A DNA stretch of 40,517 nucleotides from positions 1 to 40,517 of IMG/VR virus record IMGVR_UViG_3300042504_003359. The stretch is one strand, 5' to 3'. Source of the stretch: a virus. The notes beneath the pieces are model-generated. The model worked only from the letters and a program-made list of their open reading frames with translations. It was not told the origin of the DNA and ran no database searches. Made by a program: the position numbers and the translations under genes. Positions 18 through 39,313 of the stretch are shown piece after piece. Position 1 is the first letter of the stretch; each line of letters starts with the position of its first letter.

Positions 18-57
18 AACCCTTCCCCCCTTGATGGTCTGGGGGGAGGGGTTTTTT
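18..57 (+). terminator. Strong hairpin with T-run; 3' arm doubles as ribosome binding site
   Basis: Bases 18-30 pair with 41-53 (13 pairs, one G-T wobble) around a 10-base loop, and six T follow (52-57), which is a classical Rho-independent terminator. The 3' arm contains GGGGAGGGG and lies directly before the ATG at 59, so it is also the only ribosome binding site for the nuclease gene. If the contig is circular this terminates the gene ending at 40467. The arm is a copy of the dispersed AACCCCTCC motif. The shape is seen directly; the dual role is inferred. Confidence 0.7.
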
Positions 58-58
58 C

Positions 59-1264
59 ATGGAGTCCCACATGCCCTCCGGAACTGAAACCCGTTTCCTC
101 CTCGACGAACTCGGCCTCAAGGCCACCATCCCACACATCCGCTCCTCCGACTACGAACTCGCCCTCACCAACCCCTTCGCCTACTACCTCGCCCGCCGCC
201 TCTCCCTCTCCTGCCCCCTCCCCTCCTCCGAGGCTCTCTCCCGCGGCTCCTTCTTCCACGCCTGCGCCGAGCACGACGACTTCTCCTACTCCTACCCCAA
301 GCTCCAGGGCTACGACGCCCACATCGCCCTCGAGAAAGACAAGCTCGCCACCCACCTTTCCAACTTCGGCATCATCGGCGATACCCGCGACCGCTACTTC
401 ACCTCGCTCCTCCGAGACGCCGAGATCGCCCGCTCCTGGTACATCGCCTCCGCCTCTGTCCCCCTCCCATCCCCGTTCCACACCTGGCGCCACTGGATCA
501 CCCATTCCCCCTTCGAACTCATCGCCAAGGAGTTCGACCTCACCGTCGACAACCCCTTCTCACCCCACGCTCCCATCACCGTCCGCTTCGACCTCCTCCT
601 CTACCACAAGCTCCACAACACCCTCTGGATCGTCGACTTTAAGACCACCTCCCTCCCTCCCCGCTTCCGCGCCCTCACCATCACCCGCGAGTTCCAAACC
701 CAAGCCTACCTGGCCGCCCTTTCCAAAGCCCTCTCCACCTCCACCTTCCCCCTCCCGCTCCCGTCCGACGTCCGCGTCGGTGGCATGACCCACATCATCG
801 TCGAGAAGTGCCCCCTCCTCTTTTCCCAGGCCGACCGCTCCTTCACCCTCGAGCCCTTCACCCCCACCCGCGGACCCAACAAGGGCGTCACCCGCTTCGA
901 GAAGAAGTTCCACGGCGACCCCGTCTTCTCCAACTACCTCACCCGGGTCTCCAACTGGTATCTCGGCGCCGACGAGTACGCCGACCTCCTCCCCGAACGC
1001 TCTTCCTCCCCGGTCGTCCTCATTTCCAACACGCCCTATGAAGACGTTCTTCACGCCGACGGCTTGTCCGAGTACGAATCCCGGCTACACTACATCACTT
1101 CACTTGCAACCTGTCCAGCGAACCCCTCCCTCTTCCACCTCAACCCCTCCTCCATGATCTCTTCCGACGGTCCTACCCCCTTCGCCCCCTTCGCTTTCAC
1201 CCCACCCGCCGCATGGCCAGACCTTCTCGCCCCCAACCACCTCGCCATCATTCCCCGCAACTGA
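59..1264 (+). CDS. PD-(D/E)XK nuclease, Cas4/RecB-like
   Basis: A 401-residue protein with the hallmarks of the RecB/Cas4-type PD-(D/E)XK nuclease family. It has a G-x-x-x-H motif at residues 63-67 (GSFFH), a metal-binding Asp at 178 (VRFD), the catalytic D-x-K at 193-195 (VDFKT), and a Q-x-x-x-Y motif at 213-217 (QTQAY). Proteins of this family resect DNA ends or cleave single strands. Here it shares an operon with a Sak4-like annealing ATPase and a candidate single-strand-binding protein, so the likely job is the exonuclease of a phage recombination and replication module. The start at 59 follows a G-rich ribosome binding site formed by a terminator arm. ATG 71 is a possible alternative. 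Codons mostly end in C. The family call is firm; the exact polarity and substrate are unknown. Confidence 0.8.
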   Translation: MESHMPSGTETRFLLDELGLKATIPHIRSSDYELALTNPFAYYLARRLSLSCPLPSSEALSRGSFFHACAEHDDFSYSYPKLQGYDAHIALEKDKLATHLSNFGIIGDTRDRYFTSLLRDAEIARSWYIASASVPLPSPFHTWRHWITHSPFELIAKEFDLTVDNPFSPHAPITVRFDLLLYHKLHNTLWIVDFKTTSLPPRFRALTITREFQTQAYLAALSKALSTSTFPLPLPSDVRVGGMTHIIVEKCPLLFSQADRSFTLEPFTPTRGPNKGVTRFEKKFHGDPVFSNYLTRVSNWYLGADEYADLLPERSSSPVVLISNTPYEDVLHADGLSEYESRLHYITSLATCPANPSLFHLNPSSMISSDGPTPFAPFAFTPPAAWPDLLAPNHLAIIPRN

Positions 1265-1300
1265 CTTAGTCACTGACCAACCTCTCTCCTGGAGCCCCTT

Positions 1301-1918
1301 GTGTCCGACGAAAATCCCCTCGAATCCTTCCCCACTACCGACGCCATTCCGGTCGTCTCCAACCCCCGGCCCAAGAAAGCGGGAGGGGGAAAGAAGAAGA
1401 AGGCCCCCAAAAAGACCCGTCGCGCACCCTGGCACCTCGTCCTCTTCGCCGAGCTCTGCCCCACCCTGATCACCGCCATCAAAACCACGCTCGCCGAAAG
1501 CGGCGGAGTCCGCTCGCTCGCCGATCTGCACCGCACGTTCGAGAAGAACCTCAACTGCACCATCGACCGCGACACCTTCGACAACGCCGTCTTCATGGAC
1601 GACACCCTCGCCGCCCTCTTCAACAAGCCCAACCTCATCACCCTCCCCACCGCCTCCACCAACCTCAACCCCCAGAAACAGACGCCAGACAGCTCCTTCG
1701 GCCCCGGCGCCCGTACATCCTTGATGGTCCTGGACGATCCCGAAGATCCGCCCCCCGGCACTCTCGACATCGACTTCAAGCCCATCTTCGAAGCGTTGGG
1801 TGACCACGGCTCGACGCCGGCGGCTGGTGGTGCCGCGGCGTCATCGCCGTGGGTGCCCCCTCCTGATCCCATGGCGGTCCAGTTGGACAGATCGGGACGG
1901 CCCGTCTCCCGCATCTGA
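1301..1918 (+). CDS. Hypothetical basic protein in recombination operon
   Basis: A 205-residue protein starting at GTG 1301, with GGAG about seven bases upstream (1290-1294). The N-terminal third carries a Lys/Arg cluster (residues about 24-42, GGGKKKKAPKKTRR within it), which suggests nucleic-acid contact or a flexible tail. Residues 45-110 look folded and helical, and the C-terminal 70 residues are Pro/Gly/Ala/Ser-rich and probably disordered. No known domain was recognised. It lies 36 bases after the nuclease and 30 before the Sak4-like ATPase, in the same direction, so a helper role in recombination or replication is plausible but not shown. Confidence 0.6.
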   Translation: MSDENPLESFPTTDAIPVVSNPRPKKAGGGKKKKAPKKTRRAPWHLVLFAELCPTLITAIKTTLAESGGVRSLADLHRTFEKNLNCTIDRDTFDNAVFMDDTLAALFNKPNLITLPTASTNLNPQKQTPDSSFGPGARTSLMVLDDPEDPPPGTLDIDFKPIFEALGDHGSTPAAGGAAASSPWVPPPDPMAVQLDRSGRPVSRI

Positions 1919-1948
1919 TTCCCCCCTCCCCTCTTTCGAAAGGTTCGC

Positions 1949-2896
1949 ATGTCCCAATCCCTCTCGCAGGGTGCAACTCTCCAGTCCAAGTGGAAAGGGC
2001 TCGGAGGCTCCGTCGGCCGGATGATCGCTCCCCCCTCCCGCATGAAGGGCTTCCTCTTCGGCCTCCCCGGCGAGGGCAAATCCGCCTTCATCCAGTCCCA
2101 CCCCGACGGCTACATCTTCAACCTTGACGCCTCCTCGACCACCACGCCCAACCCCTCCGCCGTCATCTTCCCCGGCGTCGATCCCGAGACCGGCCGTGCA
2201 GTAGGCGACAACGGCGAACACATCGTCCTCACTTACGACTACATCGAGGCCAAGGTCGCCAAGCTCATCGCCCTTGCCGCGGCCAACGAACCCCGGCCCG
2301 AAACCATCTTCTTCGACTCCATCTCCGCCTGGATCTCTCTCCTCATCCAGTGGATCCCGCCCAACGCCGCCAAACTCGGCATCTCCCGCGAGCCGGCCTC
2401 CGACTGGAAGCAGCTCCACGGCCCCGCGGCCTGGGACACCCTCTACTCCATCATCACGACCACCATCACCAAGCTCCACAACGCGGGCTACGGCGTCTAC
2501 GTCATCGGCCACGTAGTCAACGCCAAGATCCCCCTCGAAGAGAACCGCTTCATCGTCAAGCCCGAGCTCACCATCACCGACGGCCTCTGGAAGCGCCTCT
2601 ACCACATGTTCGAGCTCTCCGCGCTGATCCACCGCGAAGAAGTCCAAGAGGTCAAAGAGATCCCCCAAACCGTCAAGCGCTCCGACGGCCGCACCGAGTC
2701 CTTCATGCACAAGAAGACGGTCTCTACCCTCAAGGTCCGCCTTACCGTCTCCAAGCTTGAACTTGCCGGTATCGCCAAGGCCCGCGTCCCCCTCCCCGCC
2801 AACATCGACCTCCCGCTCGACACCGGCTGGCGCACCTTCACCGACGCCTACAACACCGCCGCCGCGTCCATCTCCTCAACCCCTCCCGCTCCTTAG
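1949..2896 (+). CDS. Sak4-like RecA-fold ATPase (phage annealing/recombination protein)
   Basis: A 315-residue P-loop ATPase. Walker A is at residues 38-45 (GLPGEGKS). The Walker B strand is at 119-123 (TIFFD), followed by a Ser and a conserved helix. A RecA-like sensor strand ends in His 188 (VYVIGH). Single-domain ATPases of this kind next to a nuclease and an SSB are typically phage Sak4-type recombinases, which help anneal complementary strands. The gene starts at ATG 1949 with AAAGG just upstream. It carries one motif copy inside the gene (2150-2158) and another across its last codons (2878-2889). The P-loop fold is clear. The assignment to Sak4 rather than another AAA_24-like ATPase rests on size and context. 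Confidence 0.7.
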   Translation: MSQSLSQGATLQSKWKGLGGSVGRMIAPPSRMKGFLFGLPGEGKSAFIQSHPDGYIFNLDASSTTTPNPSAVIFPGVDPETGRAVGDNGEHIVLTYDYIEAKVAKLIALAAANEPRPETIFFDSISAWISLLIQWIPPNAAKLGISREPASDWKQLHGPAAWDTLYSIITTTITKLHNAGYGVYVIGHVVNAKIPLEENRFIVKPELTITDGLWKRLYHMFELSALIHREEVQEVKEIPQTVKRSDGRTESFMHKKTVSTLKVRLTVSKLELAGIAKARVPLPANIDLPLDTGWRTFTDAYNTAAASISSTPPAP

Positions 2897-3062: not shown

Positions 3063-3647
3063 ATGAGCCAGCTTTCGAACGACGTGTCCGCTCTCCTCAA
3101 CGCCGCCGCTTCCGACCTCGGCAAGGCCACCCCCAACACCGGCCAGGGCCTGCAGGGCGAGTGGCCCCCGCAGGGCGACCACGACTGCTTCATCGTCGGC
3201 GTCCGCGAGGTCGTCACCGACATCAAGATCGGCGGCGGCGCCTCGGCCAAGGGCGTCGAGATCCAGTTCCAGTACCTCTACCAGACCTCGCCCTCCGACC
3301 CCAACTTCGACCCGGCCAACCCCAAGCCGCCGCTTGAGTTCTGGGGCGAGAAGTTCCGCGTGGTCCCCAACTACGAGAAGGTCGTCCTCGAAGAGGGCAT
3401 GAAGACCGCCATGCGGATCTCCAACGACCGCTTCATGGGCCACCTCACCAAGATCCTCCGCCAGCCCAAGGAGAACATCCCCTCGGCCGCCGCCGGCTAC
3501 GCCTCCGTCAAGTCCCTCATCGAGACCGGCGAGTCCCGCATCATGGTCCGTCTCCGGGTCGACATCCGCTCGACCCCCAACAAGAAGGACCCGACCAAGC
3601 CCAACTGGGTCAACCGGACCGAGTTCATCCTCGACCGCCTCAGCTGA
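3063..3647 (+). CDS. Candidate single-strand DNA-binding protein (DUF669-like)
   Basis: A 194-residue protein starting at ATG 3063 behind a good AGGAG at 3053-3057. An in-frame upstream ATG at 3015 has no ribosome binding site and would add 16 unlikely residues. The body has alternating beta strands with many aromatics and basic residues, and a polar, charged organisation that resembles OB-fold phage proteins found beside Sak4-type recombinases. There is no diagnostic catalytic motif. The function is inferred mainly from position: exonuclease, annealing ATPase, then this gene, followed by a terminator. It could also be another replication accessory protein. Confidence 0.45.
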   Translation: MSQLSNDVSALLNAAASDLGKATPNTGQGLQGEWPPQGDHDCFIVGVREVVTDIKIGGGASAKGVEIQFQYLYQTSPSDPNFDPANPKPPLEFWGEKFRVVPNYEKVVLEEGMKTAMRISNDRFMGHLTKILRQPKENIPSAAAGYASVKSLIETGESRIMVRLRVDIRSTPNKKDPTKPNWVNRTEFILDRLS

Positions 3648-3706
3648 AAATCTGAGTTGACCGGGACCGAGGCCCCCGGTACGCTCTTCGAGTAACCCCT
3701 CCCCTC

Positions 3707-3930: not shown

Positions 3931-3936
3931 CTTGTC

Positions 3937-4011: not shown

Positions 4012-4524
4012 ATGCCCCATTCCTGCTCCCTTGAGGTTCAGCACCTCGATTTTGTGGAGCCGCAGGGCGATTTCCATCCAGTGACCCTCTCGTTCGTAAG
4101 GCCCCGCCTCGGGCCCCTCTTTCGCCTGTCCTGGAACTCGACCCTCCTCCTCTCCCTTTCCCCGTTCCGCTCCTCTTTCCAAGCCACCCTCATCGTCTCC
4201 TCTCTGCCCGGAGACGCCCCTTCCTACGCGCACCTGGACTTCTCCCAAGAGATCCTGGGCCACGCCACATTCCCCACCCTCTACATCGCCCCTCTCCGCC
4301 CCTCCGCGCCCGAGGGCCTCTCCCGCAAGCGCCTTCCTCCCAACCCCATCCCCCGCCTCAACTACCACCTCTTTCCCAAGACCCTCAAAGCCCTCTCCTT
4401 CACCGCGGGCGACCCCAAGGGGAGGGGTTCATGGTGGGCCTCCCGTCTCACCGCCCCCAACGACCTCCCCTGCACCGTCCACTCCACCTCCAACGGAGTC
4501 CAGTTTTGGATACCTTTCCACTGA
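4012..4524 (+). CDS. Hypothetical protein starting 3 bases after tRNA-Met
   Basis: A 170-residue protein with the same C-ending codon preference as its plus-strand neighbours, so it is likely real. The first ATG is at 4012, only three bases after the last tRNA base, and there is no ribosome binding site because the upstream bases belong to the tRNA. Release of the tRNA by 3'-end processing would leave a nearly leaderless mRNA. A later non-ATG start cannot be excluded. No domain was recognised; the middle is beta-like and the protein ends with aromatic residues (FWIPFH). Its end overlaps the start of the next gene by 19 bases. Confidence 0.55.
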   Translation: MPHSCSLEVQHLDFVEPQGDFHPVTLSFVRPRLGPLFRLSWNSTLLLSLSPFRSSFQATLIVSSLPGDAPSYAHLDFSQEILGHATFPTLYIAPLRPSAPEGLSRKRLPPNPIPRLNYHLFPKTLKALSFTAGDPKGRGSWWASRLTAPNDLPCTVHSTSNGVQFWIPFH

Positions 4525-5108: not shown

Positions 5109-8100
5109 CTACTCCTCTTTGAATCCCCTGAATGAAGAGCCCCCACCCCTCCCCTCCGGGCCCACCGCGTTCCTCCTCGCCTCGACCTCCCTCATCCGTT
5201 CCTCAAGCCCCGGCCGCAGGGCGTCCCTAGACGACGCGGAGCCGCCCTGTGACAACACAGTGGGGTCCATGCCCCGGACGCTTCCTGAGCCCGCTACGGC
5301 CGCCGCGTACGGCTGCCGCACATCGGTCCCGTACGAGTCCAAGATGCGCTCGGTCCTCGACGTTGCCCTGTTCCGGGTGTACTCCTTCAACTGGGCCTTG
5401 CTGATCGTGAGCGGCACCTTGAACTTCTTCTGGAACTCGGCCTTCAGCTTCGCCACCCTCCCCATGTCCCCCACATAGAGGGCCCGGATCGCCTCGTGCC
5501 TCATCCCATCAATCTGCTTCTTATGCTTCACCAGCCAGTTGTCCAGCTCGCCCTGCTGCTTCCACGTCCCCAGGTCCGCACCCACCGCCTTCGCCACCAC
5601 CTCCGCCGGGCTCCGGTACTCCTTCAGCAACCCCTCCCCGTTGTACACAGGCACCAGCCCGTTCTGCATCTCGTCCCACCCCACGCTCTGCGTCTGGAGG
5701 GCCCCCAGCCCCCCTCCCATCCCGGTCCGCGGCATCTCGGGCATGAACCCCATCGCCCGGTTGATCGCCACGCCGCCCGGCACCATCCTCGCCACCGCGC
5801 TCTGCATCAGCTTCGAGTCGTCGTTGGCCCACCCCCTGATTAGATCCACCGGGATCGCCACCACCGGCGGCACCGGGATCGGGCTCGACTCCGGGTCCAG
5901 CAACCGGTCCCCACCCGCGATCCCCGTCAACGACCCAGCGAACAACCCTTTGCTCAGATCCGCACCCACCAACCCCTTCCCCACCTCATACAGCATCGCG
6001 CTCATGCCCATCCCCCGGAAGAACATATTCGCCATGTTCTTCACCACCGACGGGTCTCCCTCGAACGTCTGCAGCTGAGGGAACACCTGAGTCGTGCCCA
6101 CAAACGACCGCAGCGGGAACGTGAAGAACTGCCGCACCAACCGGTTGCTCAGGATCCCCTTCTCAAACACCAGCGGCGTGTTCATATCGCTCTGCCCGAA
6201 CTGCGTTTGCAACACGAACCGCCTCAGATCGCTCCTGAACAAGTCGCCCGTCGGCGCCCGGCCCACGCCCTTGTAGGCGTTCTTGAGGATCTTGCCGGCG
6301 ACCACCCGGTTCATCCACTCCGTCTTCTCGAACCCCTTCATGAAGACCTCGAACATCCGGTCCGTCGCCGTGCCCTTGCTCGCCGCCAGGTGCGAGTCCA
6401 GACTCTGGAACATGTCGGGCCCAATCCCCAGATCGTCCGCGTGCTCAAAGCTCTGCCGCACCAGGTTCGCCTTTTCCTCCGCCGTGATGAACCTGCCGCC
6501 CATCCCGATCCTCTTCCTCGCATAAGTCCCCATCTCCCCGATCGCCTCTCCGTACGCCTTCAACACATCCATCGGGTTCTTCGAGACCGTCGCCGCCAGG
6601 AGGAGGGGTTGCGTCAGGTTCATCAGCATCGACGACACATTCAGACCCAGATGGCTCGCGTACAACCACTTTGCCAGCCCATCGCTCACGTTCCCAAGCT
6701 TCGTGTCCATATCGAACGACCCGATGTTCTCGAGCCGCGTCACCAGCTTCTTGCCCCACTCCCCTCCATACTTCTTCACCCCCTCCCCCAAGGGGCTCTT
6801 CGCCCACCATCCCGCCATCTCCTTCGTCCTGATCTGCGCGTTGTACAGCGCCAAGTACTGATCCCCGGCGTTCCCGATCATGCTCGGCACCGCGCTACTC
6901 CGGAAAATCTCCTGAGCCGCGGGGCTCGGGATACTCGAGTAGATCCGGTCCAAAATGTCCCCGTTGCTCACCCTCCACGGCGTCGCCGTCCTCCCCACAA
7001 TATCCTTCCCATCGCTCTTGAAGGCCCAGTCCAGCCGCCAGTTCCCGATCACACCGAACTGCGTCCTGTGGCTCTTCAAGTCCTCCCGCATGTTGCGGAT
7101 CCGGTTCGCGTCATCAATAAACGCCTCTTCCGCAGCCGGCGCCGTGTCGAACGCATGGAGCTGGGTCAGGCCCCTCTGGTGCCTGTCGTTCGACTCCGCG
7201 TACCGCGACGGGTCCCACGTCATCAACGTGCTCTGGTCCTTCGCCCTCGTCCGCATCACCACCCCGGTCTTCCTCACCAGCGCCCTGTGCGCCCTCCCTT
7301 CCTCGGTCAGCGCCCCGTGCTTCTCCAACAGATCCAGGTAGTCCTCCGAGAACCAGACCTCCTTAGGCGTGATGGGCGCCACGTTCTTCGCGTTGCTCGC
7401 GGACGCCGCGTGCGGCGCCAGCCCAAACGCCTTCTCCTGGACCACGTCACCCAGCTGCAACAGCATCCGCGTCCCGTCCTCGTTGCGGGCCGGGGTGAAC
7501 ACGTTCCTCGAGCTCCAGTTCCCCACGTTCCAGTTCAGGTGGTCCCCTCCCACAATCCGCTCCACCTCTTCCGCCACATTCTCCAGCTGCCTCACCACAT
7601 CCCCTCTGATCTTCAACCCTTTCACCCGCTCCACACCCAGAAGCTGCACCAGCGCATCCATCCCATAGATCGTGCTGGTCATCTTCCCATAGGGGTCCTT
7701 TACGTTCATGTTGCGGTTGAAGCTCGAGATCAACCGGAACGTCTTCTCCCGGTCCATCCTGAACATCCCCGTCTCCGCATAATGCGCCTCATCCCCCAGC
7801 GCCTCCACAAACCGGTCCTTGTTGGCCTTGTCCCACGCCGTCATGAAATCGCCCAGCTCCTTCTCGATGGGCTCCGCCAGCTTCGCCAACCTCACCCCGT
7901 CCGCCACCTTCGGCACCGGCGCCGCGTCCTCAACCCCTCCCAACGATTTCAGGTCGGCCTCAAAGAACTCGTCCGAGTCCTTCCAGAAGTTGTCGATCGC
8001 CCGATCCCTCGACAAAATCTCAAACGCCTCATTCGGCGCCAGCTGTGTCGCGTCTGGATGCCTGCTCCCCTCCCGCGTGAACTCCACCCTCGCCAACTCA

Positions 8101-18945: not shown

Positions 18946-19281
18946 TCATGCTCCCGCGACCCAGTCGACATAAAAGGTGCCCAAAGCTCCCAGAGGGGCG
19001 TTGGCGTAGATTGTAAACCCCTCCCCTTCAACCAGCGATCCGACGTAACAGGTGATTCCCTCGAGCATCGCCTCTTCGGCCCGGCGCCCCGCAGTCGGTA
19101 CGGCCGAGACAGATGCGAGGATCCTGCTCCCGCTCCGAACCCACGTCTGGCCGGTTACCACCGCGGTCGCCTGAAAGTCACCCGTCCCAAAGTTCAAGGT
19201 GGCCCGGCCCAAGCACAGAGACCCGGGATCCCTGGTGCTCTGGACGTAGGGCACTCGGAACTTTGTGGGAAATCCTGGCAC
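18946..19281 (-). CDS. Small beta-rich structural protein
   Basis: 111 residues from GTG 19281 behind a strong AGGAGG. It is a compact, all-beta looking protein with a hydrophobic, aromatic C-terminal end (TFYVDWVAGA). Its place between the nozzle-like protein and another beta-rich protein suggests a tail or fibre-attachment component. No named family was recognised. Confidence 0.55.
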   Translation of the reverse strand: MPGFPTKFRVPYVQSTRDPGSLCLGRATLNFGTGDFQATAVVTGQTWVRSGSRILASVSAVPTAGRRAEEAMLEGITCYVGSLVEGEGFTIYANAPLGALGTFYVDWVAGA

Positions 19282-26648: not shown

Positions 26649-26689
26649 GACGAAATCTCCTGTGAGGAGGGGTTTTTGGAAAGAGGAGT

Positions 26690-28385: not shown

Positions 28386-29315
28386 GGTTCTTGTCCCACG
28401 CTCGGCGTCCACGGAAGCTCGGAGGAGGGTGTCAACTGCCCAGTCATGGGCCTCTTTGGACACCTCGTCCATCGACTTCCCCTTCTTCCAGACGGGAGCG
28501 GAGACGGGTTTGTTCTGGGAGACGTACGCCTGTTCATCCGTCAAGTCTTCGGTTCGCCCCAAGCGGGAGGGGTTCGGAACCAGGAGCTTGAACTTGCCGT
28601 ACACCGCGGACGCGGCCTTGGCGGCTTCCTCGTTGATCCACTCGTCCCGCCACGCCCCACCGCTCTGCAACCGACGCGCCCGGAGGCGATCGAGAGTTTC
28701 ACGGCGGACGTCGGAGAGAAGAGTCTCTCGGAGGTTGGCTGTTTCCGTTTCCCCTTGACCTTCTGAGTCCCGGGACTGCGAGATCGCCTTGTAAAGCTTA
28801 CCAAGATCCGTACGAGAGTCAAGAGTGCCGTTGAGGGCCTCCTTCATCTGACCCTCGAGACGGTTCCGGTCCTGGCGCCGGGTGGCCTCGCGGAGCTCCT
28901 CGAGACTGGCCCGCGTCTGCTGCACGAACTGGGCGGCCTCGCTCTCGTCCTCGTCGTCGTCCTGTGAACCCCTCCCTTTGGGTTCGGGGGTCTCGGGCGT
29001 TTCGCGGGTCGAGCGGATGTAGTCCTCGATCTCGGCGGAGGAGTAACCGGTGCGGGCCATGAGCCGGCGGACGGAAGCTTCGGAGGCGGAGGGGTCGGAG
29101 CCAGGGCGCAGGAGGGTGTTGACGTGACCGAGGTCCTCTTCGGCCGACTTGAGCTTGAGGCGGAGGGCCTCGGACTCGGTCGACTGCTTGAGAAGCTTGT
29201 CGTACTCGGCGCGGGAGAGGGGGATGGTGTCGGCAGGAGGTGTGGTAACCCCTCCCGTGGGGGTGGGGGTGCCGCCGGTTTCGGAATCAGGCGAACGGAG
29301 AAGAAGGTTGCGCAT
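28371..29315 (-). CDS. Scaffolding protein
   Basis: 314 residues from ATG 29315 with GGAG upstream, overlapping the portal gene's end by 29 bases. The protein is acidic and highly charged, mostly helical, with a Glu/Asp-rich centre (residues about 110-130) and long predicted coiled-coil stretches (35-75 and 130-215). This is the usual character of phage scaffolding proteins, which line the inside of the prohead and are lost before packaging. It sits exactly between portal and capsid. Motif copies at 28967 and 29247 are read in different frames. Confidence 0.7.
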   Translation of the reverse strand: MRNLLLRSPDSETGGTPTPTGGVTTPPADTIPLSRAEYDKLLKQSTESEALRLKLKSAEEDLGHVNTLLRPGSDPSASEASVRRLMARTGYSSAEIEDYIRSTRETPETPEPKGRGSQDDDEDESEAAQFVQQTRASLEELREATRRQDRNRLEGQMKEALNGTLDSRTDLGKLYKAISQSRDSEGQGETETANLRETLLSDVRRETLDRLRARRLQSGGAWRDEWINEEAAKAASAVYGKFKLLVPNPSRLGRTEDLTDEQAYVSQNKPVSAPVWKKGKSMDEVSKEAHDWAVDTLLRASVDAERGTRTESPL

Positions 29316-31344
29316 TGGGGGCTCCAGGGGATGCAGGCAGGCCGGGCATCATTCCCGGACCCATTCCGGGTTGAAGTGAGCCGGCGCCGATCTGCATCTG
29401 GGAAAGCATAGCCGCATCGTCGGGGTTCGGTACGGCGGATGGAAGGACCATGCCCATGAACTCGATGAGGGTGAGGCGGAACTTCCGCATGGCGTTGTGA
29501 ACCGAGGCGGAGGCGACCGACATGGCAGGGCCCGCGATGAAGGAGTTGAGCACGCGGAGAACGATGGAGGGGCGGGTGGTGTGGGGGCTGATGATCGCTT
29601 GGCCGGGGTTCTGGCCGTCGCCGTAGATGAGGAGGATGGTGCGGACTGCCATCTCGTAGGCGGCCTTGTCTTCGTCGACCCACATGGCGAAGTCGAGGTT
29701 CTCTTTAAGCGCAAAAAGGGTGAAGGCCTCGGGGTCCTGGTTGATGCCCTTGGCCCACAGGTCGATCGCTTCCTGTTTGCGGGCGACGATGGACTTGGGA
29801 ACGAGGGCCCGCACAGTGAAGTTGATGCGGGACAGGTTGGGGAGGGGGTTGTCGGTGAAGGAGACGGTGAGGGCCTCGGGGTCGATGACGGCGCCGGCGA
29901 GGTCGAGGGTGAGGGAGCCGACGGGCAGGGCGCGGCGGGACATGGTGAGATGGGAAGTGACGTTCTGGATGAGGGAGCGGTACATGTCGCCCCAGGCCCG
30001 CGAAACCCCTCCCGTTGGGGTGGTGAGCGTGCGCTGGATCTGTTCGTCGAGGAAGGCGAGACCGGAGGCGGAGTCAACTCGGCCCTTTTCCTGGATGAGA
30101 TCCTGGATGGGGTTGACGGCCTGCATGGCCTCGCGGGCGAACTGGGCCACGCGGCCGGGCATGTCACCGAGGTTGTGGGGCGTGATGACGAAGGGGTTGA
30201 ATCCTTCGGTCATGGCGTCGGGCTGCCAGAACATGGTGCGCAGGCCGCGGCCGACGTCGCGGAGGAGCTGGTTCTGGTTGATCTGGCCCTGGGGCAGGAC
30301 GAGGACGCCGTAACGGTCGAGGTCGTAGATGTTGTTGAAGAGGGCCTTGGTGAGTTTCTCGAGGTTGCGGTGGACGGAGAAGAGCATGTCGAACATGCCG
30401 GCGCCGTGGAAGGTGCCGTTGTTGAAGAAGCGGGCGTAGCCGATGGGGCAGTAGACCTCCTGGTTCTGGAGGAGGTCGTCCTGGAGGACCTCGTTGCCGC
30501 AGACGACGGCGTAGCGGCGGACGGTGTTGTTGACGCCGGTAAGCCAGAGCTCGCGGACCTTGGCGACACCGATGAACTCTTTCTCGCCGCCGGTGCGGTC
30601 GGCGCCGGCGGAGGGGCCGATGGAGCGGGTCGAGGTCCAGTAGACGATGTCGTTGTTGACGTTGCGGTCGGGCCAGGCTTCGCCCGGGTCGGCCTCGTAC
30701 CACTCCATCTGGTCGAGCTTGGAGTTGATGGCGCGGGTGCCGTAGATTTCGCGGAGCTTGTCGAGGGTGATCCAGCGTTGGCGGATCAGACCCATGGACT
30801 TGGTGTGGTCCTGGCCGGTGAGGGGGAAGGGGTAGATTTCGCGGGGGTGGATGACTTCGATGTCGGTGGTCAGGCCGATGGTGGGATGGTCGACGACGTG
30901 GCCGGTGATGCCCGCGAAACCGAGGCACGCGAACATGTAGCCGAAGTCGTCTTTGGCTTTGTCGACCATGTTCTCGGAGATGGTTGCGTCTCCGATGATC
31001 TGGGACGTGGCCTTCGATCTCATGCCGTCGAGTGAAGAGGACTGGGTCTCGGTACGGAGGCGGAGGTCCATGCCCGAGATGCGGCCCGCGACCTGGTTGA
31101 TGGCGAAGAGGAGGTCCTGGGACGTGTACTCCATGTTGCCCTCCTTGTCCAGGAGGTGCGGGGAGAGCTGGCCGGAGATGGGGTCGAAGACGTCGAAGCG
31201 CCGGTAGCCCTGGAGGTAGTACCAGGCGAGGAGCCACATGGTTCGCCGGTACATGTAGTGGGACTCGGCGATGTTGGCGTGCCGACGAACGACGTTAGCA
31301 AGTTCTCTTGCGTTGGTCGGAAGCGTGATGGTGTCGTTCGTCAT
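29287..31344 (-). CDS. Portal protein
   Basis: 685 residues from ATG 31344, overlapping the previous stop by four bases (ATGA) with AAGGA upstream. Length, mixed helical organisation, a long crown-like helical segment and a Met/Pro/Gly-rich C-terminal tail (residues about 645-685) fit the portal of podoviruses, the dodecameric ring through which DNA is packaged and ejected. The place between the terminase and scaffold genes supports this strongly. A motif copy at 30004 encodes TGGV inside a loop-like stretch (TPTGGVSRA). Confidence 0.8.
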   Translation of the reverse strand: MTNDTITLPTNARELANVVRRHANIAESHYMYRRTMWLLAWYYLQGYRRFDVFDPISGQLSPHLLDKEGNMEYTSQDLLFAINQVAGRISGMDLRLRTETQSSSLDGMRSKATSQIIGDATISENMVDKAKDDFGYMFACLGFAGITGHVVDHPTIGLTTDIEVIHPREIYPFPLTGQDHTKSMGLIRQRWITLDKLREIYGTRAINSKLDQMEWYEADPGEAWPDRNVNNDIVYWTSTRSIGPSAGADRTGGEKEFIGVAKVRELWLTGVNNTVRRYAVVCGNEVLQDDLLQNQEVYCPIGYARFFNNGTFHGAGMFDMLFSVHRNLEKLTKALFNNIYDLDRYGVLVLPQGQINQNQLLRDVGRGLRTMFWQPDAMTEGFNPFVITPHNLGDMPGRVAQFAREAMQAVNPIQDLIQEKGRVDSASGLAFLDEQIQRTLTTPTGGVSRAWGDMYRSLIQNVTSHLTMSRRALPVGSLTLDLAGAVIDPEALTVSFTDNPLPNLSRINFTVRALVPKSIVARKQEAIDLWAKGINQDPEAFTLFALKENLDFAMWVDEDKAAYEMAVRTILLIYGDGQNPGQAIISPHTTRPSIVLRVLNSFIAGPAMSVASASVHNAMRKFRLTLIEFMGMVLPSAVPNPDDAAMLSQMQIGAGSLQPGMGPGMMPGLPASPGAPNAQPSSPFA

Positions 31345-31655
31345 GAGGTGGTTCCTTCAGGGGGCTTGGTTCCTGAAGGATAGGTCTGGGCCGCGATGCC
31401 ACGGGGCTTGAAGCCTGCGGGTGCGCCGACAGCAGCCCGCAGGCGGGTGAGGTCGATGGGGGAGGGGGCCGCGGTGGCTGGGTTGAAGTCGACCGGGGGA
31501 GAGGGAGGGGTTTCGATTTCTTCTGCGAGAGGCTCTTCTTGAGCGGAGGCGTGGCGGGGACCCCTCCCGTAGTAACAGGAGAAGAGGCGGTCGGCGAGGA
31601 CCATGGGCAGCCAGACGCCGGAACCTTGGGGCGAGGGATTGGAGGAGGGGTTCAT
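31341..31655 (-). CDS. Small Pro-rich hypothetical protein
   Basis: 104 residues from ATG 31655 with AAGG upstream. It is Pro-, Ser- and Ala-rich with only one short hydrophobic segment (WLPMVLADRLF within it), so it is largely disordered. Its stop overlaps the portal start by four bases, implying coupled translation and a role in head assembly. Two exact motif copies fall in or next to it (31504, 31644). Confidence 0.5.
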   Translation of the reverse strand: MNPSSNPSPQGSGVWLPMVLADRLFSCYYGRGPRHASAQEEPLAEEIETPPSPPVDFNPATAAPSPIDLTRLRAAVGAPAGFKPRGIAAQTYPSGTKPPEGTTS

Positions 31656-31658: not shown

Positions 31659-32522
31659 TTACCTTCGGAAGGAGCGGGTGACAAGGGACTTTAAGAAACG
31701 AGACACAAAGGAAGTGCCATCGGTGGCTGCGGTGAGGGTTTGGATCGCGGGGTTTTGGGCGACAGATGCCCGCATAACCCCTCCCCCCATTCTGAACAGG
31801 TCGCGGCGGCTGATGGGTTTCTGGAGAGTCGCTCTGAGGAGGAGGGGTTGCTGTCTCCTGAGCTCCTCGTTGCGAAGCGCACGCGCGTACTCGGTTTCCT
31901 TGAGCTTCTCGTGCATCGGACGGCCAACGAAAGTTTTGTTCTTTTCGAGGCTGTGCTTCACAACCTCGTCGGCGTCGCGTTCGGTTGAATCGCTGTTCCA
32001 GTAGTGCTCGGCGCCGTCAGCCATCGCGTCTACCTGCGCGTCTTCCAGGGTATATGGCTTGAAAAGGCCTTCCTTTGCTTCTTTGATGCGTTGGTCGCTG
32101 TAGCCCCTCAAATAGCCCTGTTTGCTTTGTGTATGTCGGTCTGCGAGGTTGAGGCTGCGGAGGATCCGCTCTGCTTCTACAGAACGTCCCTCTGTTGGGG
32201 CCGCGAGTTTCCTGAGTTTCAGAAGCTCGGCGATGGCGATGCGCTTTTTACCGGCCAAGGTTTTCTTGCGGATCTCTTTCGCGATTCCTAGTCGTTCAGT
32301 GAGTTTTTTGTCATATAGGTCTTCAAAGAAGAAGTCGTCGTTGAAGGAGACGGGATGGTAGTTGGGGGGGAGTGGGTGGGAGGTGTTGTCGAAGGGGTTT
32401 TGTTGGAATAGGTCTGGCATCGAAGCCTTAATGGCTTCGTGTTGGGCTTTGTCGGCGAGGTCATTAAGGATCTCCAACTCGGAGATGGTCATCCGATCGC
32501 GATGGGAGAGTGGGGATTCCAT
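31659..32522 (-). CDS. Hypothetical protein between terminase and portal
   Basis: 287 residues if read from ATG 32522; ATG 32492 is an alternative, and neither has a good ribosome binding site. The protein is highly charged and helical, with several Arg/Lys/Glu-rich stretches and a Met/Gly-rich insertion (FRMGGGVMRAS within it) generated by a motif copy at 31776. No domain was recognised. Its position suggests a packaging or head-assembly partner. Confidence 0.55.
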   Translation of the reverse strand: MESPLSHRDRMTISELEILNDLADKAQHEAIKASMPDLFQQNPFDNTSHPLPPNYHPVSFNDDFFFEDLYDKKLTERLGIAKEIRKKTLAGKKRIAIAELLKLRKLAAPTEGRSVEAERILRSLNLADRHTQSKQGYLRGYSDQRIKEAKEGLFKPYTLEDAQVDAMADGAEHYWNSDSTERDADEVVKHSLEKNKTFVGRPMHEKLKETEYARALRNEELRRQQPLLLRATLQKPISRRDLFRMGGGVMRASVAQNPAIQTLTAATDGTSFVSRFLKSLVTRSFRR

Positions 32523-32530: not shown

Positions 32531-34483
32531 TTAGACGCGGGAATCTCCAGAGAGGGCGGTTGCAGGGTCGACAGGGAAAGAGACAGTGGGTGAGGATTGG
32601 GAGGCGAGGAGGGTGTTGAGCTGGTCGGCGGTAAGGGATTGGAGAGGGAGGCCCTGGGCGATGGAGGCACCGCCGGGGAGGGTCTTGATGCCGCGGGCGA
32701 GAAGGTCGAAGGGGTCGAGGGAGAGATCGGAGTTGGGGGTGTGGGGTGCGGAGATGCGGCCGCGGAGAGCTTGGAGGGACATGGAGACGGTGTCGAGCTC
32801 GTCGTCGTGGTCGAGACCGCCGTTGGCCGCTTCGGGGTTGAAGCCTTCGATCTGGTCGAAGAGACGGCGGATGCCGGGGTTGGTGGAGCGGGCGTGGAAG
32901 GGGAGCTTGATGAGGGCCCACTCGAAGCGGGGCTCGAGCGCGGCGATCTTGGAGGACTTTTCGAGGGTGCCCGGGCGAAGGTCGCGGAGGGCGATGGGTT
33001 GGGTGAAGCCCATGTCGGAGGACATGCGGGTCGAGATGATGTGGGAGAAGGCGGTGTAGAGCTTGAAGGACTCGCGGACGACTTCGACGAAGATGGTGGA
33101 GCAGCCCCAGCGGGCGGACATGCCGAGGGTTTTCTGGATGAGAGCGGAGTCGGTGCAGCGCGAGGATTCCATGTCGAGCACGAAGAGCTCGTTGGCGGAG
33201 GTCGCGGCGAGGAGGGTGGCGACGCGGCGATCGGAGTGGGAGGTTTCGGTGAAGGCGGTGTCGACGGTGATGAAGAGGCGGCAGGAGGAGAGGAACTCGC
33301 GGATGGTGGTGGACTGGGGGCCGGCGGCGGAGGTCCAGTTGATGCGGGCGAGGGACTGGCGGGGGTTGGTGGAGAGGAGGGTGTCGGGTTCGGTGAACCA
33401 GTAGGAGTGACGGCCGGAAGGGGAGGGGTCGAGTTTGAAGAAGGTCTCGGAGGACTCGCCGGGACGACCGAGCATTTCGTTGTTGAAGGCGGCGGTGCCC
33501 ATCATGCCCTTCATCTCCTCGAGGGAGACGAGGGTGGGTGTGCCGCGGGCGTGTTTTTCGGCGATGGTCGCGGGCCACATATCGGGCCAGCAGGAGATGA
33601 CGGCGCCGGTGGTGGGGTCTTCGGTGGCGGCCCGGACCCAGAGCTTGGACCAGTAGTTGAAACGGGGGTCTTCGGAGACGACGGAGCCGGTCGCGGGGTC
33701 GGTGTGGGTTGACATCGCGTGCCAGAGATAGTGGCGTTTGGAGACGAAGGTGCCGAGCCAGCGGATGGTGGACTCACCGCGGAGGACCATGGGGATGCAG
33801 AGACGGAAGATGAGGCGGTCCATGTAGTCACGGATGAGCGTGAGGGAGGTGGAGGCCTTTTCGTCGTACTCGGGATCGTCGAGGGCGAAGGTTTTGGGGC
33901 GGATACCACGGACGCGGGACTCGGCGGAGACGCAGCGGAGGTAGGCGCCGTTGGTGAGGAAGAAGTATTCGACGCCGGTGGGTCGCTCGCCGCGGGAGGG
34001 CTTGAGGTTTCCGAAGTCGTCGAAGATCCGGGAGTTGTTGTAGCACTGGTCCTTGATGAGCTGGCCGGTGTGCTTGGCGTTGTCGTGCGTGGAGGTGGCG
34101 TAGACGCACGAGTGGGCGTGGCCAGAGACCAGCTCGAGGATCAGGGACTTGCGGATGAGCGTGGACTTGGCGCCGCCGCGGGGGGCAAGGCCCACCGAGT
34201 AGCGGTGGCCGTACCACTGAGCGACGAGGGCGTCGTGGAAGGCCGGCGTTTCACGGGGAGGGGCGTCGTAGAAGAGGGGATCGAAGGCGCCGGCCGGGTC
34301 AGGGTGGAGGTAGTAGAGGTCGAAGAAGCGGAGGGCGGCGACGGCGTAGCGGGGTGGGGCATTGGGGACGGTCCAGATGCGGGCCGCGTTGACGCGGGCA
34401 AGACGCTGGCCCTCGGGCGAGAGGTCCGGGTAGTCCTCGGGGAGGGGGAAGTAGGGCGAGTTGTGGAAGAGGGTGGCTGTCAA
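32531..34483 (-). CDS. Terminase large subunit (TerL)
   Basis: 650 residues from TTG 34483. An in-frame TTG at 34501 overlaps the previous stop but has no ribosome binding site, whereas TTG 34483 is preceded by GGGAGGGGTTCA, a motif copy that serves as one. The ATPase half shows Walker A at residues 98-107 (GLAPRGGAKS) and Walker B at about 198-205 (TFALDDPE). The C-terminal nuclease half has an RNase H-like first acid at 408 (ITVDTAF) and a second at 437 (FVLDME), and an Asp-rich segment near 585 may supply the third. This is the motor that packages and cuts DNA into the prohead. Codons mostly end in C here. Confidence 0.9.
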   Translation of the reverse strand: MTATLFHNSPYFPLPEDYPDLSPEGQRLARVNAARIWTVPNAPPRYAVAALRFFDLYYLHPDPAGAFDPLFYDAPPRETPAFHDALVAQWYGHRYSVGLAPRGGAKSTLIRKSLILELVSGHAHSCVYATSTHDNAKHTGQLIKDQCYNNSRIFDDFGNLKPSRGERPTGVEYFFLTNGAYLRCVSAESRVRGIRPKTFALDDPEYDEKASTSLTLIRDYMDRLIFRLCIPMVLRGESTIRWLGTFVSKRHYLWHAMSTHTDPATGSVVSEDPRFNYWSKLWVRAATEDPTTGAVISCWPDMWPATIAEKHARGTPTLVSLEEMKGMMGTAAFNNEMLGRPGESSETFFKLDPSPSGRHSYWFTEPDTLLSTNPRQSLARINWTSAAGPQSTTIREFLSSCRLFITVDTAFTETSHSDRRVATLLAATSANELFVLDMESSRCTDSALIQKTLGMSARWGCSTIFVEVVRESFKLYTAFSHIISTRMSSDMGFTQPIALRDLRPGTLEKSSKIAALEPRFEWALIKLPFHARSTNPGIRRLFDQIEGFNPEAANGGLDHDDELDTVSMSLQALRGRISAPHTPNSDLSLDPFDLLARGIKTLPGGASIAQGLPLQSLTADQLNTLLASQSSPTVSFPVDPATALSGDSRV

Positions 34484-34497
34484 TGAACCCCTCCCGC

Positions 34498-34872
34498 TCA
34501 ACCAGAGACGGGTTCGGTGAGCTCGGGGTTGGTGGGCGTGAACCCCTCCCGCTTGGGTGGGTGGGAGGAGGCGGCGAAGGACTGGATGTGGTGGACGAAG
34601 GCGTGGCGGGTGATGAGCGCGAGCTGGAGGTAGGGGTCGTGGATGAAGAGGGTGTCGCGGTGGTACTGGATGAGGGAGGTGGTGAGGGGGTTGGTGAGGA
34701 TGAAGAGGCGGATGGAGGCGCCGATGGAGGAGGCGCGGAGGTGGCGGGTGGGATCGGAGAAGCCGAAGTCGATGAGGAGGGGGCCGACGAAGCCCGAGAG
34801 CTCTTCGTTGGAGAGGGTGGAGATGTGGGAGAGGATGGTGGAGAGGAGCGGGTCAGGCGGAGGGGTCGGCAT
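34498..34872 (-). CDS. Hypothetical protein upstream of terminase
   Basis: 124 residues from ATG 34872, which has CGGAG six bases upstream and overlaps the end of the preceding ORF by 20 bases. A second possible start at 34968 also has GGAG, but the extra 32 residues would be low-complexity and overlap a better-supported frame. The core (residues about 10-95) is helical with hydrophobic patches. It ends next to the terminase start and carries a motif copy at 34541 read as REGF. It could be a small terminase or packaging factor; no motif proves this. Confidence 0.5.
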   Translation of the reverse strand: MPTPPPDPLLSTILSHISTLSNEELSGFVGPLLIDFGFSDPTRHLRASSIGASIRLFILTNPLTTSLIQYHRDTLFIHDPYLQLALITRHAFVHHIQSFAASSHPPKREGFTPTNPELTEPVSG

Positions 34873-35865: not shown

Positions 35866-37299
35866 ATGAGCGGAATCGGTTCAACGGATCGGCCTTTCGT
35901 GAATGATGAGCCTTTGACTCTGGCGAGGGGCATGGCGGACACGTGGGGGAAGACGGAGAACGGGAAGAGGGGGCTGTGGCGGATGCCCAATGGGTGGTGG
36001 GTGTGGGAGGGGAACAAGTGGAAGGTGAAGGGAACGGACAAGCTGGAGCGGGAGGTGTGGCGGTGGTTGGACGGGAAGTGGTTTGTGAAGCGGGAGAAGG
36101 AGGGGCAGCGGGTGCTGGAGAAGGTGAGGGTGGGGAGGGGTCTGGTGTCGGACGTGGTCGCGGCGCTGGACGCGGTGTGCGAAGGGCTGTGGGAGAAGTT
36201 GCCGACGTGGGATGATGGAGTGGGCCCGGACGCGGAGCGGTGCGTGGGGTTCGAGGATGTGGTGCTGAGTGTGGGTGGGAATGGGGTGGAGGTGGTGGAG
36301 AAGCGGACGGAGCGGTGGGTGGACGGGGTGGTGGTGCCTGTGAAGTGGGAGGAGGAGGCGGAGTGTCCGCGGTGGATGCAGGCGCTGGAGGAATGGGGGA
36401 ACGGGGACAAGGAGTGGGGGAGGTTGCTGCAGTGGTGCATGGGGTACAGCCTGTTGGGGTGGAGGGGCTATGCGAAGTGGCTGTTGATGCAGGGCAAGAG
36501 CAGGGCGGGGAAGGGTGTCATTGCGCATGTGTGGAAGAAGATGCTGGGAGGGGAGTGCTGGTTTGAGACCGGGATGCAGGACCTGGCGAATGACTTTGGG
36601 CTGGATGGAGTGGAGGGGGCGAGGGTGCTGAGTATCAGCGAGTTCTATGAGGCGGAAACGGCGACCAGCGCGAAGGTGAGCCGGGTGATGAAGAATGTGA
36701 TCGGGGAGGATGGGGTGACGGTGAACGTGAAGTATGAGAGGCAGAGGAGGGTAAAGGAGAGCCCGCTGGTGGTGGTGCAGAGCAACATGATGCCGAAGCT
36801 GCCGAACGAGAGCGAGGGGATCAGCAGCAAGATGCTGGTGCTGCCGTTCACGGTGAGCTTCAGGGATGGGGGAGAGAGGGCGCCGGATTTTGGGTTGAAG
36901 GCGAAGCTGGAGAAGGAGATGGCGGGGATCGCGGCGTGGGCGGTGAGGGGCGCGGTGGAGATGGAGAGGAAGGGTGGGTTGGGGTGGCCGCGGCCGGCGG
37001 TGGCGGCGGAGGTCGAGAAGAGCTTCAGGATCAAGAACAACCCGATGGATGCGTTCCTGGAGGCAAGGTTCAAGCTGGACCCGGAGGGGTTCGTGCCCAG
37101 TGAGATGCTGTGGCAGGAGTGGCGGCAGTGGGTGGACGTGAACCAGGTGCAGATGCGGGTGAGCAGGAACTACCTCGGGATGAGGCTGGAGTCGGACAGC
37201 ACCTGGAAGCTGTGGCGGGGAAGGAGGAAGGTGGGCGAGGAGCAGGTGAGGGGCGTGTTTGGGATCGCGCTGAGGAAGGTTGTGGACGATGAAGTGTAA
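35866..37299 (+). CDS. SF3 helicase, D5/P4-type replication protein
   Basis: 477 residues from ATG 35866 with AGGAG upstream. The C-terminal two thirds hold a superfamily 3 helicase: Walker A at residues 210-217 (GKSRAGKG), Walker B at 253-260 (RVLSISEF, with E259), and motif C around 303-311 with N307 (VVVQSN), followed by the hydrophobic strand MLVLPF. No primase motifs were recognised in the first 160 residues, so this may be helicase only. The usual Arg before the MLVLPF-like strand appears as Ser-Lys (321-322), which is odd. Unlike other plus-strand genes, its codons end mainly in G, matching the strand composition rather than the gene direction. It is the best candidate for the replication initiator or helicase. 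Confidence 0.8.
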   Translation: MSGIGSTDRPFVNDEPLTLARGMADTWGKTENGKRGLWRMPNGWWVWEGNKWKVKGTDKLEREVWRWLDGKWFVKREKEGQRVLEKVRVGRGLVSDVVAALDAVCEGLWEKLPTWDDGVGPDAERCVGFEDVVLSVGGNGVEVVEKRTERWVDGVVVPVKWEEEAECPRWMQALEEWGNGDKEWGRLLQWCMGYSLLGWRGYAKWLLMQGKSRAGKGVIAHVWKKMLGGECWFETGMQDLANDFGLDGVEGARVLSISEFYEAETATSAKVSRVMKNVIGEDGVTVNVKYERQRRVKESPLVVVQSNMMPKLPNESEGISSKMLVLPFTVSFRDGGERAPDFGLKAKLEKEMAGIAAWAVRGAVEMERKGGLGWPRPAVAAEVEKSFRIKNNPMDAFLEARFKLDPEGFVPSEMLWQEWRQWVDVNQVQMRVSRNYLGMRLESDSTWKLWRGRRKVGEEQVRGVFGIALRKVVDDEV

Positions 37300-37390: not shown

Positions 37391-37476
37391 CTTGTTGAGT
37401 ACTTGTTGGGTGGGTTTTGAGCAGGTTGTAGGGGGTTTGAACGGGGTAGTACGGGAGATGGCTGGGGCACTAGTAA

Positions 37477-37498
37477 AACCCCTCCCGCAGGGGAGGGG
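37477..37498. other. Perfect hairpin built from a motif copy
   Basis: CCCCTCCC at 37479-37486 pairs with GGGAGGGG at 37491-37498, an eight-pair stem with a four-base loop (GCAG). The left arm belongs to an AACCCCTCCCGC motif copy starting at 37477. It lies in the presumptive origin region. There is no T run, so a terminator role is weak. Confidence 0.55.
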
Positions 37499-37666
37499 GG
37501 TGGATGGGCCTAGTGAACCCCTCCCGTATGGTGAATGGGTCCCAGCCATAGTGAATAATCCAAGGAAGACGCAGTAGACAGGGTAGACGGGTTGTGGGGA
37601 AAGTGAAAAAGGGCCCTGGGAGTGCGGGAAGCGGGAAATGGGGACCGGGAGAAGCCCCTGGAAAGT

Positions 37667-38525: not shown

Positions 38526-38535
38526 CCCAAACCCC

Positions 38536-38577
38536 GACCTACCCGGGCCTAACCGCTCGGGTAGGTCTTCAGTTTTA
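38536..38577 (+). terminator. Rho-independent terminator
   Basis: GACCTACCCG at 38536-38545 pairs perfectly with CGGGTAGGTC at 38558-38567 (ten pairs, 12-base loop), followed by TTCAGTTTTA. It lies about ten bases after the 170-residue gene's stop. This is the clearest terminator in the window. Confidence 0.85.
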
Positions 38578-38759
38578 CGGGGGGCTGCCCTCGCACTCCA
38601 CTCTCCTCTCCTCCAGTTACCCCCTACCCCTAGTACCTACCACTCCCCTACCCACAATCCCTAGCGGTCCCCCGCTCCCCACCCCCAACCTGTTGTGTCC
38701 CCCTCCAGATGCTCCGTTGCATCCGGATCCCCTTTCCCCTCCCTCAAGGAGTCCGCCTC

Positions 38760-39272
38760 ATGAACGCTGACCGCTCCCGCCCCATCGACGCCCTCTTCAC
38801 CGCCGCCCGCCTCTACACGGCCTCCGTCCTCCCCGCCAACATGCCTCAGGAAGAGGCCGATGCCGAGAACCTCCTTGAGTTCATCGGCGGCTACCACCAC
38901 TCCATCACTTCTCCCAACATGCCCCCCTCCTCAATCCGCACTCCTGCCTTCCACGCCGGTTTCAAGTTCGGCATGTCCCGTCGCCTCGACCCCCAAATGG
39001 CCAACTTTATCGACGACCTCCTCTGGGAACGTCTCTCCCACTACAACCCCATCCACCCCTCCTTCCTCCGAATCTCCAACCTCAAACTCTTCCCCGCCAC
39101 CAACTACACCGTCCCCCTCAACCTCTTCAAACCCAAAACCTTCCCTATGTCTCGCCTCTCGCTCATCTCCTCTCTCTTCCAAGCTCGCTACCCCCTCCAC
39201 AAACTCAACTTCCACCTCGCCCTCAACGATGACGGATACTGCTCCCTCCAGTTCTCCGTCGACCCCGCCTAA
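38760..39272 (+). CDS. Hypothetical protein
   Basis: 170 residues from ATG 38760 with AAGGAG ten bases upstream; an earlier in-frame ATG at 38709 lacks one and adds an unlikely leader. It has a helical, acidic first half (residues about 1-50) and an aromatic-rich second half with a conserved-looking FKFGMSRRLDP segment. Codons strongly prefer C. No domain was recognised. It is followed by a terminator hairpin at 39283. Confidence 0.55.
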   Translation: MNADRSRPIDALFTAARLYTASVLPANMPQEEADAENLLEFIGGYHHSITSPNMPPSSIRTPAFHAGFKFGMSRRLDPQMANFIDDLLWERLSHYNPIHPSFLRISNLKLFPATNYTVPLNLFKPKTFPMSRLSLISSLFQARYPLHKLNFHLALNDDGYCSLQFSVDPA

Positions 39273-39282
39273 CCCACCCAGC

Positions 39283-39313
39283 ACCCCTCCCTCACCGGGG
39301 AGGGGTTCTTTTC
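39283..39313 (+). terminator. Terminator made from a motif copy and its complement
   Basis: ACCCCTCCC at 39283-39291 pairs with GGGAGGGGT at 39298-39306 across a six-base loop, followed by TCTTTTCC. The 3' arm is an exact GGAGGGGTT motif copy (39299-39307). It lies ten bases after the stop at 39272. Confidence 0.7.

Follow-up and report, generated by a model that had tools for sequence, protein, structure and literature searches.

A short, strict sequence dispersed through the genomes of a virus family in lineage-specific dialects

A virus record of 40,517 bases from IMG/VR (IMGVR_UViG_3300042504_003359, analyzed over its full length and called the window here) carries 44 exact copies of the nine-base word AACCCCTCC, and nearly every long relative in its family of uncultured bacterial viruses has a dominant word of its own with a CCCC core. 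The sites are maintained at the DNA level and the dialects, as we call these words, follow descent. The word is asymmetric and strict; its copies are evenly spaced, take no account of genes, arise by substitution and are conserved; and it changes in concert between lineages and is missing from candidate hosts. For these reasons it very probably requires a reader that acts in trans and is produced by the virus. We tentatively propose that the motif is a virus-specific recognition sequence, most likely a Chi-like signal or self-tag in phage recombination, acting through an operon that encodes an exonuclease, a small helix-turn-helix (HTH) protein, a Sak4-like recombinase and a protein resembling single-stranded DNA-binding proteins (SSB).

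Abundance of the word in the window

A sequence-only reading of the window had reported about 44 copies of the motif where chance would give one or fewer. Exact counting returned 44 copies in 40.5 kb, with the C-rich word on the plus strand in 30 and on the minus strand in 14, against 0.97 expected from dinucleotide shuffling and 1.9 from a third-order Markov model. The codon-aware shuffle proposed in that reading also failed to reproduce the count: in 200 shuffles that kept every protein and its codon set, AACCCCTCC occurred 5.25 +/- 1.8 times with a maximum of 12, so that composition and codon use account for about one eighth of the copies. Extended forms are common (AACCCCTCCC, 29 copies; AACCCCTCCCG, 12; AACCCCTCCCGC, 8), and AACCCCTC is followed by C in 44 of its 45 occurrences in the window, defining a strict core.

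By a curated gene list, 38 copies lie inside genes, 13 on the gene strand and 25 on the opposite strand and in all three frames, while 6 are intergenic. This distribution bears out the earlier claim that copies are read in different frames and on both strands and, with the shortfall of the codon shuffles, its argument that a protein-level or compositional cause fails. Intergenic hairpins that it had described were recovered at 39283-39307 and at the pair 37477/37516. Its attribution of copies to ribosome binding sites held in part: the copy before the ATG at 59 (plus strand) resembles such a site, while the label is uncertain at 31644 and 34486, since these copies can also be read, on the other strand, as first codons (ATG AAC CCC TCC).

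Exact matches to AACCCCTCC, in window coordinates, with strand:
45..53, minus; GGAGGGGTT just before the ATG at 59
1121..1129, plus; inside the exonuclease gene
1142..1150, plus; inside the exonuclease gene
2150..2158, plus; inside the Sak4-like gene
2878..2886, plus; 3' end of the Sak4-like gene
3694..3702, plus; 47 nt past the SSB-like stop codon, the anchor site that ten dialects share
4421..4429, minus
5629..5637, plus
6602..6610, minus
7932..7940, plus
8853..8861, plus
9666..9674, plus
10785..10793, plus
12016..12024, plus
13151..13159, minus
13419..13427, plus
14849..14857, plus
15182..15190, plus
16317..16325, minus
16951..16959, plus
17752..17760, plus; same position used by a different dialect in G044
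19016..19024, plus
20561..20569, plus
21446..21454, plus
22100..22108, plus
22496..22504, minus
22765..22773, minus; related dialect at the orthologous position of G001
25186..25194, plus
25835..25843, plus; related dialect at the orthologous position of G001
26666..26674, minus
28566..28574, minus; related dialect at the orthologous position of G001
28967..28975, plus
29247..29255, plus
30004..30012, plus
31504..31512, minus
31644..31652, minus
31776..31784, plus
31841..31849, minus
34486..34494, plus; start of the terminase gene
34541..34549, plus
37083..37091, minus; inside the helicase gene
37477..37485, plus; intergenic hairpin
37516..37524, plus; intergenic
39299..39307, minus; terminator-like hairpin 39283-39307

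Dialects of the virus family

The family was defined by the terminase large subunit-like protein of the window, a putative assignment with no Pfam match:
32531..34501, minus; terminase large subunit-like protein

A single query with this protein found 41 loci and a profile at least 195 viral contigs; when the first 25 kb of the window were searched by megablast, no near match appeared among 50,697 phage records. One of the terminase matches (L031, 10001-11944) contains an in-frame stop, attributable to recoding, a frameshift or a sequencing error.

AACCCCTCC is nearly absent from these relatives, the exception being the nearest one, G001, with 7 copies. The dominant CCCC-core words of the family include AACCCCTCCC and TTCCCCGCTAG, and the dialects were assigned as follows:
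CCCCTCCAC; G001
CACCCCTCCCATC; G044/G045
GTCCCCCTCCCAT; G173
CCCCCTCTCCCGT; G043
ACCCCCACTG; G022, G023, G029, G032, G035, G058, G060
CCCCCACTC; G012, G014, G016, G046, G177
TTCCCCGCT; G008, G034
TTCCCCACTAG; G037
CTCCCCCACT; G011, G015
TTCCCCACCACCAT; G021
CCCCACCAGC; G049, G051-G053
GTCCCCCCACG; G048, G055, G057
TCCCCCCACT; G042
TCCCCCAGAAA; G174

Codon shuffles were exceeded in eight genomes of eight dialects, and CCCCACCAGC occurs 35 times in each of G049 and G052, where the reversed control word does not occur at all. Because the top word was picked separately for each genome, its enrichment is in part a product of that choice. When 12-kb stretches were scored as a control, 46 of 86 contigs of the family reached a score of 6 with a CCCC/GGGG word, against 3 of 21 other viral contigs, the latter having been picked for a AACCCCTCCC hairpin. 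Some contigs from outside the family (L079, L093, L101) also have a dispersed top word containing CCCC, such as CCCCACAGGG, with five copies in a 12-kb stretch of L079, and the phenomenon may reach beyond the terminase family of the window. No dominant word was found in G036, the most divergent family member.

That the dialects follow descent was seen on the terminase tree, where each multi-member dialect occupies one side of a branch and the dialect labels need 15 changes, the minimum. The sequence-only reading had held that homologues carrying the same residues with different DNA would mark the motif as a by-product of composition. The outcome was the opposite: homologues differ by carrying another, equally over-represented CCCC word, sometimes at the very position of the window motif. 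We found no description of a dispersed, lineage-specific word pattern of this kind in the open-licence literature searched.

Maintenance of the sites

When relatives sharing a dialect were compared, 519 of 911 alignable sites (57%) carried an identical motif, as against 1828 of 8793 nearby windows of the same length (21%); the motif was masked for alignment, and the genome pairs are not independent of one another. Together with the occurrence of copies in all frames and on both strands and the insufficiency of codon shuffles, this result upholds the selection on DNA that the sequence-only reading had suggested. Across dialects, 19 of 240 mapped sites (8%) lay no more than 3 nt from the partner's differing dialect site and in the same orientation, as where TTCCCCACTAG of G037 stands opposite TTCCCCGCTAG of G034, against 4 of 1735 (0.2%) for shifted controls.

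Sites that differ align as substitutions (11/12, 4/5, 13/13 and 7/8 in the sets compared), and gapped alignments are few. Insertion of a tiny mobile sequence, the other cause that had been offered, was rejected since copies differ between relatives by substitution, gains and losses alike and nearly always free of gaps; presence or absence as insertions, the mark of a mobile mini-element, was not found. Almost no mismatch is allowed at the inner letters of the motif, and variation is confined to its ends.

Across genomes, 694 copies were classified as 222 on the gene strand, 265 on the opposite strand and 207 intergenic (132 expected), so that about 70% fall inside genes, in all frames. Density is about one copy per kb in the lineage of the window and ranges in the family from one per kb to one per few kb, with spacing more even than random both in the window (P = 0.002) and in a combined test on one genome per dialect, that with the most copies (P = 8e-8). 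The C-rich strand and the terminase strand are opposite at 443 of 662 sites, an excess seen in nearly all of the 29 genomes tested. Codon shuffles yield a nearly equal ratio (67% observed, 63% expected), and this polarity was therefore dropped as evidence and a Chi-like genome polarity rejected.

Candidate host genomes

The only relative located on a genome contig, G042, belongs to the Myxococcales metagenome bin NP1036, which may not be the host of the virus. Its dialect word, TCCCCCCACT, occurs 21 times in the 3.6 Mb of the bin, with all but two copies on contigs C7, C18 and C72. C7 encodes the terminase and helicase, and C72 carries exonuclease, PolA, UDG and ERCC4 genes; C18, in contrast with these two, was assigned to the virus solely by motif density. 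The three contigs (L142, L225, L226) resemble pieces of one family virus, joined by their common dialect. None of 113 Myxococcota genomes came near the viral density: AACCCCTCCC reached at most 60 copies in 5.5 Mb, and ACCCCCACTGG was enriched in none.

A host Chi or DNA uptake sequence (DUS) is thus unsupported in the bin and in these 113 genomes, all of them candidate hosts only. The host-uptake option raised from the sequence alone found no support there either, and enrichment in the chromosome of a competent cell, as expected of a DUS, was not detected.

The recombination operon

The genes at the left end of the window form an operon:
59..1264, plus; PD-(D/E)XK exonuclease of the RecB/AddB/RecE/Cas4 type, first gene (Pfam PDDEXK_1, 3.6e-13)
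1301..1918, plus; small protein with a basic N-terminus, candidate motif reader (by synteny and alignment; it sits where every relative has an HTH protein)
1949..2896, plus; Sak4-like AAA_24 recombinase (Pfam AAA_24, 2.5e-8; synteny)
3063..3647, plus; conserved SSB-like protein, last gene (putative function, from its position beside Sak4)

This gene order is kept in every genome with a complete Sak4 region. Although a sequence search with the exonuclease gave no significant solved relative, its AlphaFold2 model (pLDDT 91) was placed by Foldseek nearest to Cas4, AdnAB, AddB and RecE, at a marginal E of about 1e-3, with RecB also among the nucleases that the fold resembles. A family member of the small protein was modeled as a three-helix HTH, residues 13-75 exceeding a pLDDT of 90 in most blocks; sequence and fold searches returned no significant solved relative for it. 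Sak4 is known to act together with its cognate phage SSB (PMC5928155).

In ten dialects, including that of the window (3694), one motif copy lies on the gene strand 4-70 nt past the stop of the SSB-like gene. This anchor motif is followed in G029, G032, G058, G060, G049 and G052 by a long G/C-rich hairpin, probably a terminator working in both directions, where the convergent early and late blocks meet. In the window, adjacent tRNA genes for His(GTG) and Met(CAT) (3858-4008) directly follow the operon; an Rfam scan gave no RNA match besides these two.

A proposed role in recombination

The persistence of different but related words in other lineages of the family suggests that the reader is most likely encoded by the phage, with a specificity that depends on lineage. 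We favor the operon because its presence is constant, because it encodes a suitably sized DNA-binding protein together with a nuclease from the class that responds to Chi in bacteria, and because a tag that stops the nuclease would spread by drive. In the proposed mechanism, the operon would process DNA ends; a bound motif, read perhaps by the HTH protein or by the nuclease, would halt the nuclease or switch its action and pass the end on to annealing. DNA bearing the motif would then survive end-processing and act as a repair donor, and new sites would spread by substitution, at fairly even spacing and in any gene or frame, because the DNA that carries them survives and donates. It is quite possible, if short of probable, that this amounts to a self-tag system, in which a phage reader and its strict genome-wide motif diverge together into dialects and viral DNA is protected or directed by the tag when it recombines or replicates, a drive like that of DUS operating inside a virus.

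Several observations weigh against a role of this kind. Of the core proteins, the HTH protein of the operon evolves fastest, its identity falling to about 35% within dialect D2 while the motif is unchanged there, and as sole determinant of specificity it is unsupported within D2. G036 keeps the operon without a dominant motif. Chi sites are strand-polarized, whereas the 2:1 polarity seen here is close to that of composition, and the density of Chi in phages, 0.2 per kb, is below the density here (PMC3784561). The proteins put forward as readers, moreover, are candidates.

Other genes of the window and its relatives

One replication gene is pertinent to the alternatives weighed below:
35866..37299, plus; superfamily 3 (SF3) helicase (DUF5906) without the primase half of its homologues (Pfam DUF5906, 3.1e-8)

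The matches of a homologue are confined to the C-terminal half of phage primase-helicases. Relatives encode a family A polymerase, a UDG-superfamily protein, an ERCC4 nuclease and an SF3 helicase that likewise lacks the primase half; since the PolA, UDG and ERCC4 genes of relatives of about 50 kb were not found in the window, its record is probably incomplete. A small HTH_23 protein follows the family A polymerase in dialects D2, D3, D4, D5, D6, D11, D12 and D13. It was not found in D1c, D8, D9 and D10, all of which have strong motifs, and was rejected as a universal reader on that account. The recognition helix of this protein reads SRKR[VI]FDLARRH in the five D2 genomes where it was found (e.g., L118:11438-11737), with related helices in D4, D5 and D6.

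In the structural region, the C-terminal part of the protein encoded at 22079-23116 matches a PHROG annotated as alpha-2,3-sialyltransferase (5e-11). The tail or adaptor region encodes, at 23519-24616, a glycine/threonine-rich protein of low complexity with a cysteine-rich C-terminus. The window (1-40517) has a very strong GC skew, changing sign near 24 kb and abruptly again near 38 kb, where it steps from -0.41 to +0.47 (2-kb windows), and strand-specific codon choice misleads a simple gene caller.

Known systems and alternative explanations

No known system that we compared fits all of the tested features. HIP1 of cyanobacteria is likewise a very frequent short genomic word; it is palindromic and cellular, whereas the viral word is asymmetric. 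The DNA uptake sequences of Neisseriaceae share with the motif a strict, short and dense word, copies both inside genes and as inverted pairs in terminators, and lineage dialects that switch together. Such sequences are strict, dense and divided into dialects in competent bacteria (PMC7371117), and lineage dialects with conserved sites are found for the viral motif as well; here, however, the word belongs to virus genomes, the bacterial candidates that were tested do not have it, and no competence pilus is involved. Chi of RecBCD and AddAB, together with the phages enriched in it, offers a short, strict, G/C-rich sequence present many times per phage genome in the context of RecB-family nucleases. 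In enteric phages Chi occurs at about 0.2 per kb, 2-3 times expectation (PMC3784561), where the present motif is enriched 10- to 100-fold, candidate hosts are unenriched, polarity does not go beyond composition and the phage carries its own exonuclease and recombinase.

These two systems define the view that the signal is encoded by the host, as the Chi of its RecBCD or AddAB or as its uptake sequence, the dialects mirroring different hosts. Chi and DUS are G/C-rich, strict and taxon-dependent, Chi is over-represented in phages without RecBCD inhibitors (PMC3784561), and DUS dialects follow lineages (PMC7371117). Yet over-representation in the host chromosome, one sign of a host Chi, was not found in the one candidate bin and its phylum: the dialect of the bin keeps to three contigs, of which two or more are viral, and the 113 genomes show at most 60 copies of AACCCCTCCC per 5.5 Mb and no enrichment of ACCCCCACTGG. 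Strand polarity, another sign, does not go beyond composition in the phages, where the ratio of observed to expected copies greatly exceeds the 2-3 of Chi. We consider a host signal quite improbable. A by-product of composition, codon use or small mobile insertion is the least credible explanation and very nearly discounted: strong strand skew and CCCC-rich codons do lift the expectation to 5 copies, but the shuffles, with a maximum of 12 in 200, rule out a composition or codon artefact for most copies, and the sites are conserved, coincide across dialects and arise by substitution rather than insertion.

Dispersed sites for a phage regulator or architectural protein, such as a stoperator-like repressor, a partition protein or a DNA-organizing protein, are unlikely. 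The stoperators of Cluster A mycobacteriophages are dispersed in phage genomes (PMC6550527, PMC9283540), short, asymmetric, and related but non-identical between genomes (PMC6550527), and the mild intergenic excess (207 against 132) and the conserved site at the operon end suit this explanation. Stoperators, however, mostly keep one orientation relative to transcription (PMC6550527), a predominance not found here (222 same, 265 opposite); about 70% of the copies lie within genes, and such sites usually tolerate mismatches, which the core of the motif does not. No integrase, repressor or immunity locus turned up among the families scanned, a scan that covered part of the genes. The main rival to our proposal, itself rather unlikely, is that the motif marks priming sites at which a phage primase-polymerase starts strands on a C-rich template; sites would be needed about every kb on both strands, and reading would fall to the family A polymerase and its small HTH partner, along with the primase-less SF3 helicase. 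It ranks as main rival because that helicase lacks the primase half, matching just the C-terminal half of primase-helicases, and because in SCCmec DNA is primed by an A-family polymerase and its small partner, for the most part opposite C in the template (PMC7581432). NrS-1 PrimPol and SCCmec CCPol-MP provide site-specific priming by enzymes of viruses or mobile elements in the context of an SF3 helicase and an A-family polymerase; the NrS-1 sites are TTTGGTTA and GTGG/GTGA (PMC8718748), and GTGGGG lies within most dialects. Even spacing, the occurrence of copies on both strands, the HTH_23 protein after the polymerase in eight dialects and its identical helix in D2 fit as well. On the other hand, the HTH_23 partner was not found in the four strong-motif dialects D1c, D8, D9 and D10, known primase signals are shorter, and a fixed fork direction predicts a flip of polarity along the genome, of which none is seen beyond composition. 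The word here is longer, stricter and lineage-specific, and its role in priming would be putative.

Implications

If the motif is indeed a virus-specific recognition sequence, viruses have evolved genome-wide identity words of their own, comparable to Chi and DUS, with more than a dozen natural dialects. These dialects offer ready material for comparison, both to find the reader and to test how words of this kind spread, and a dialect can link the contigs of one virus, as with the three contigs of the Myxococcales bin.

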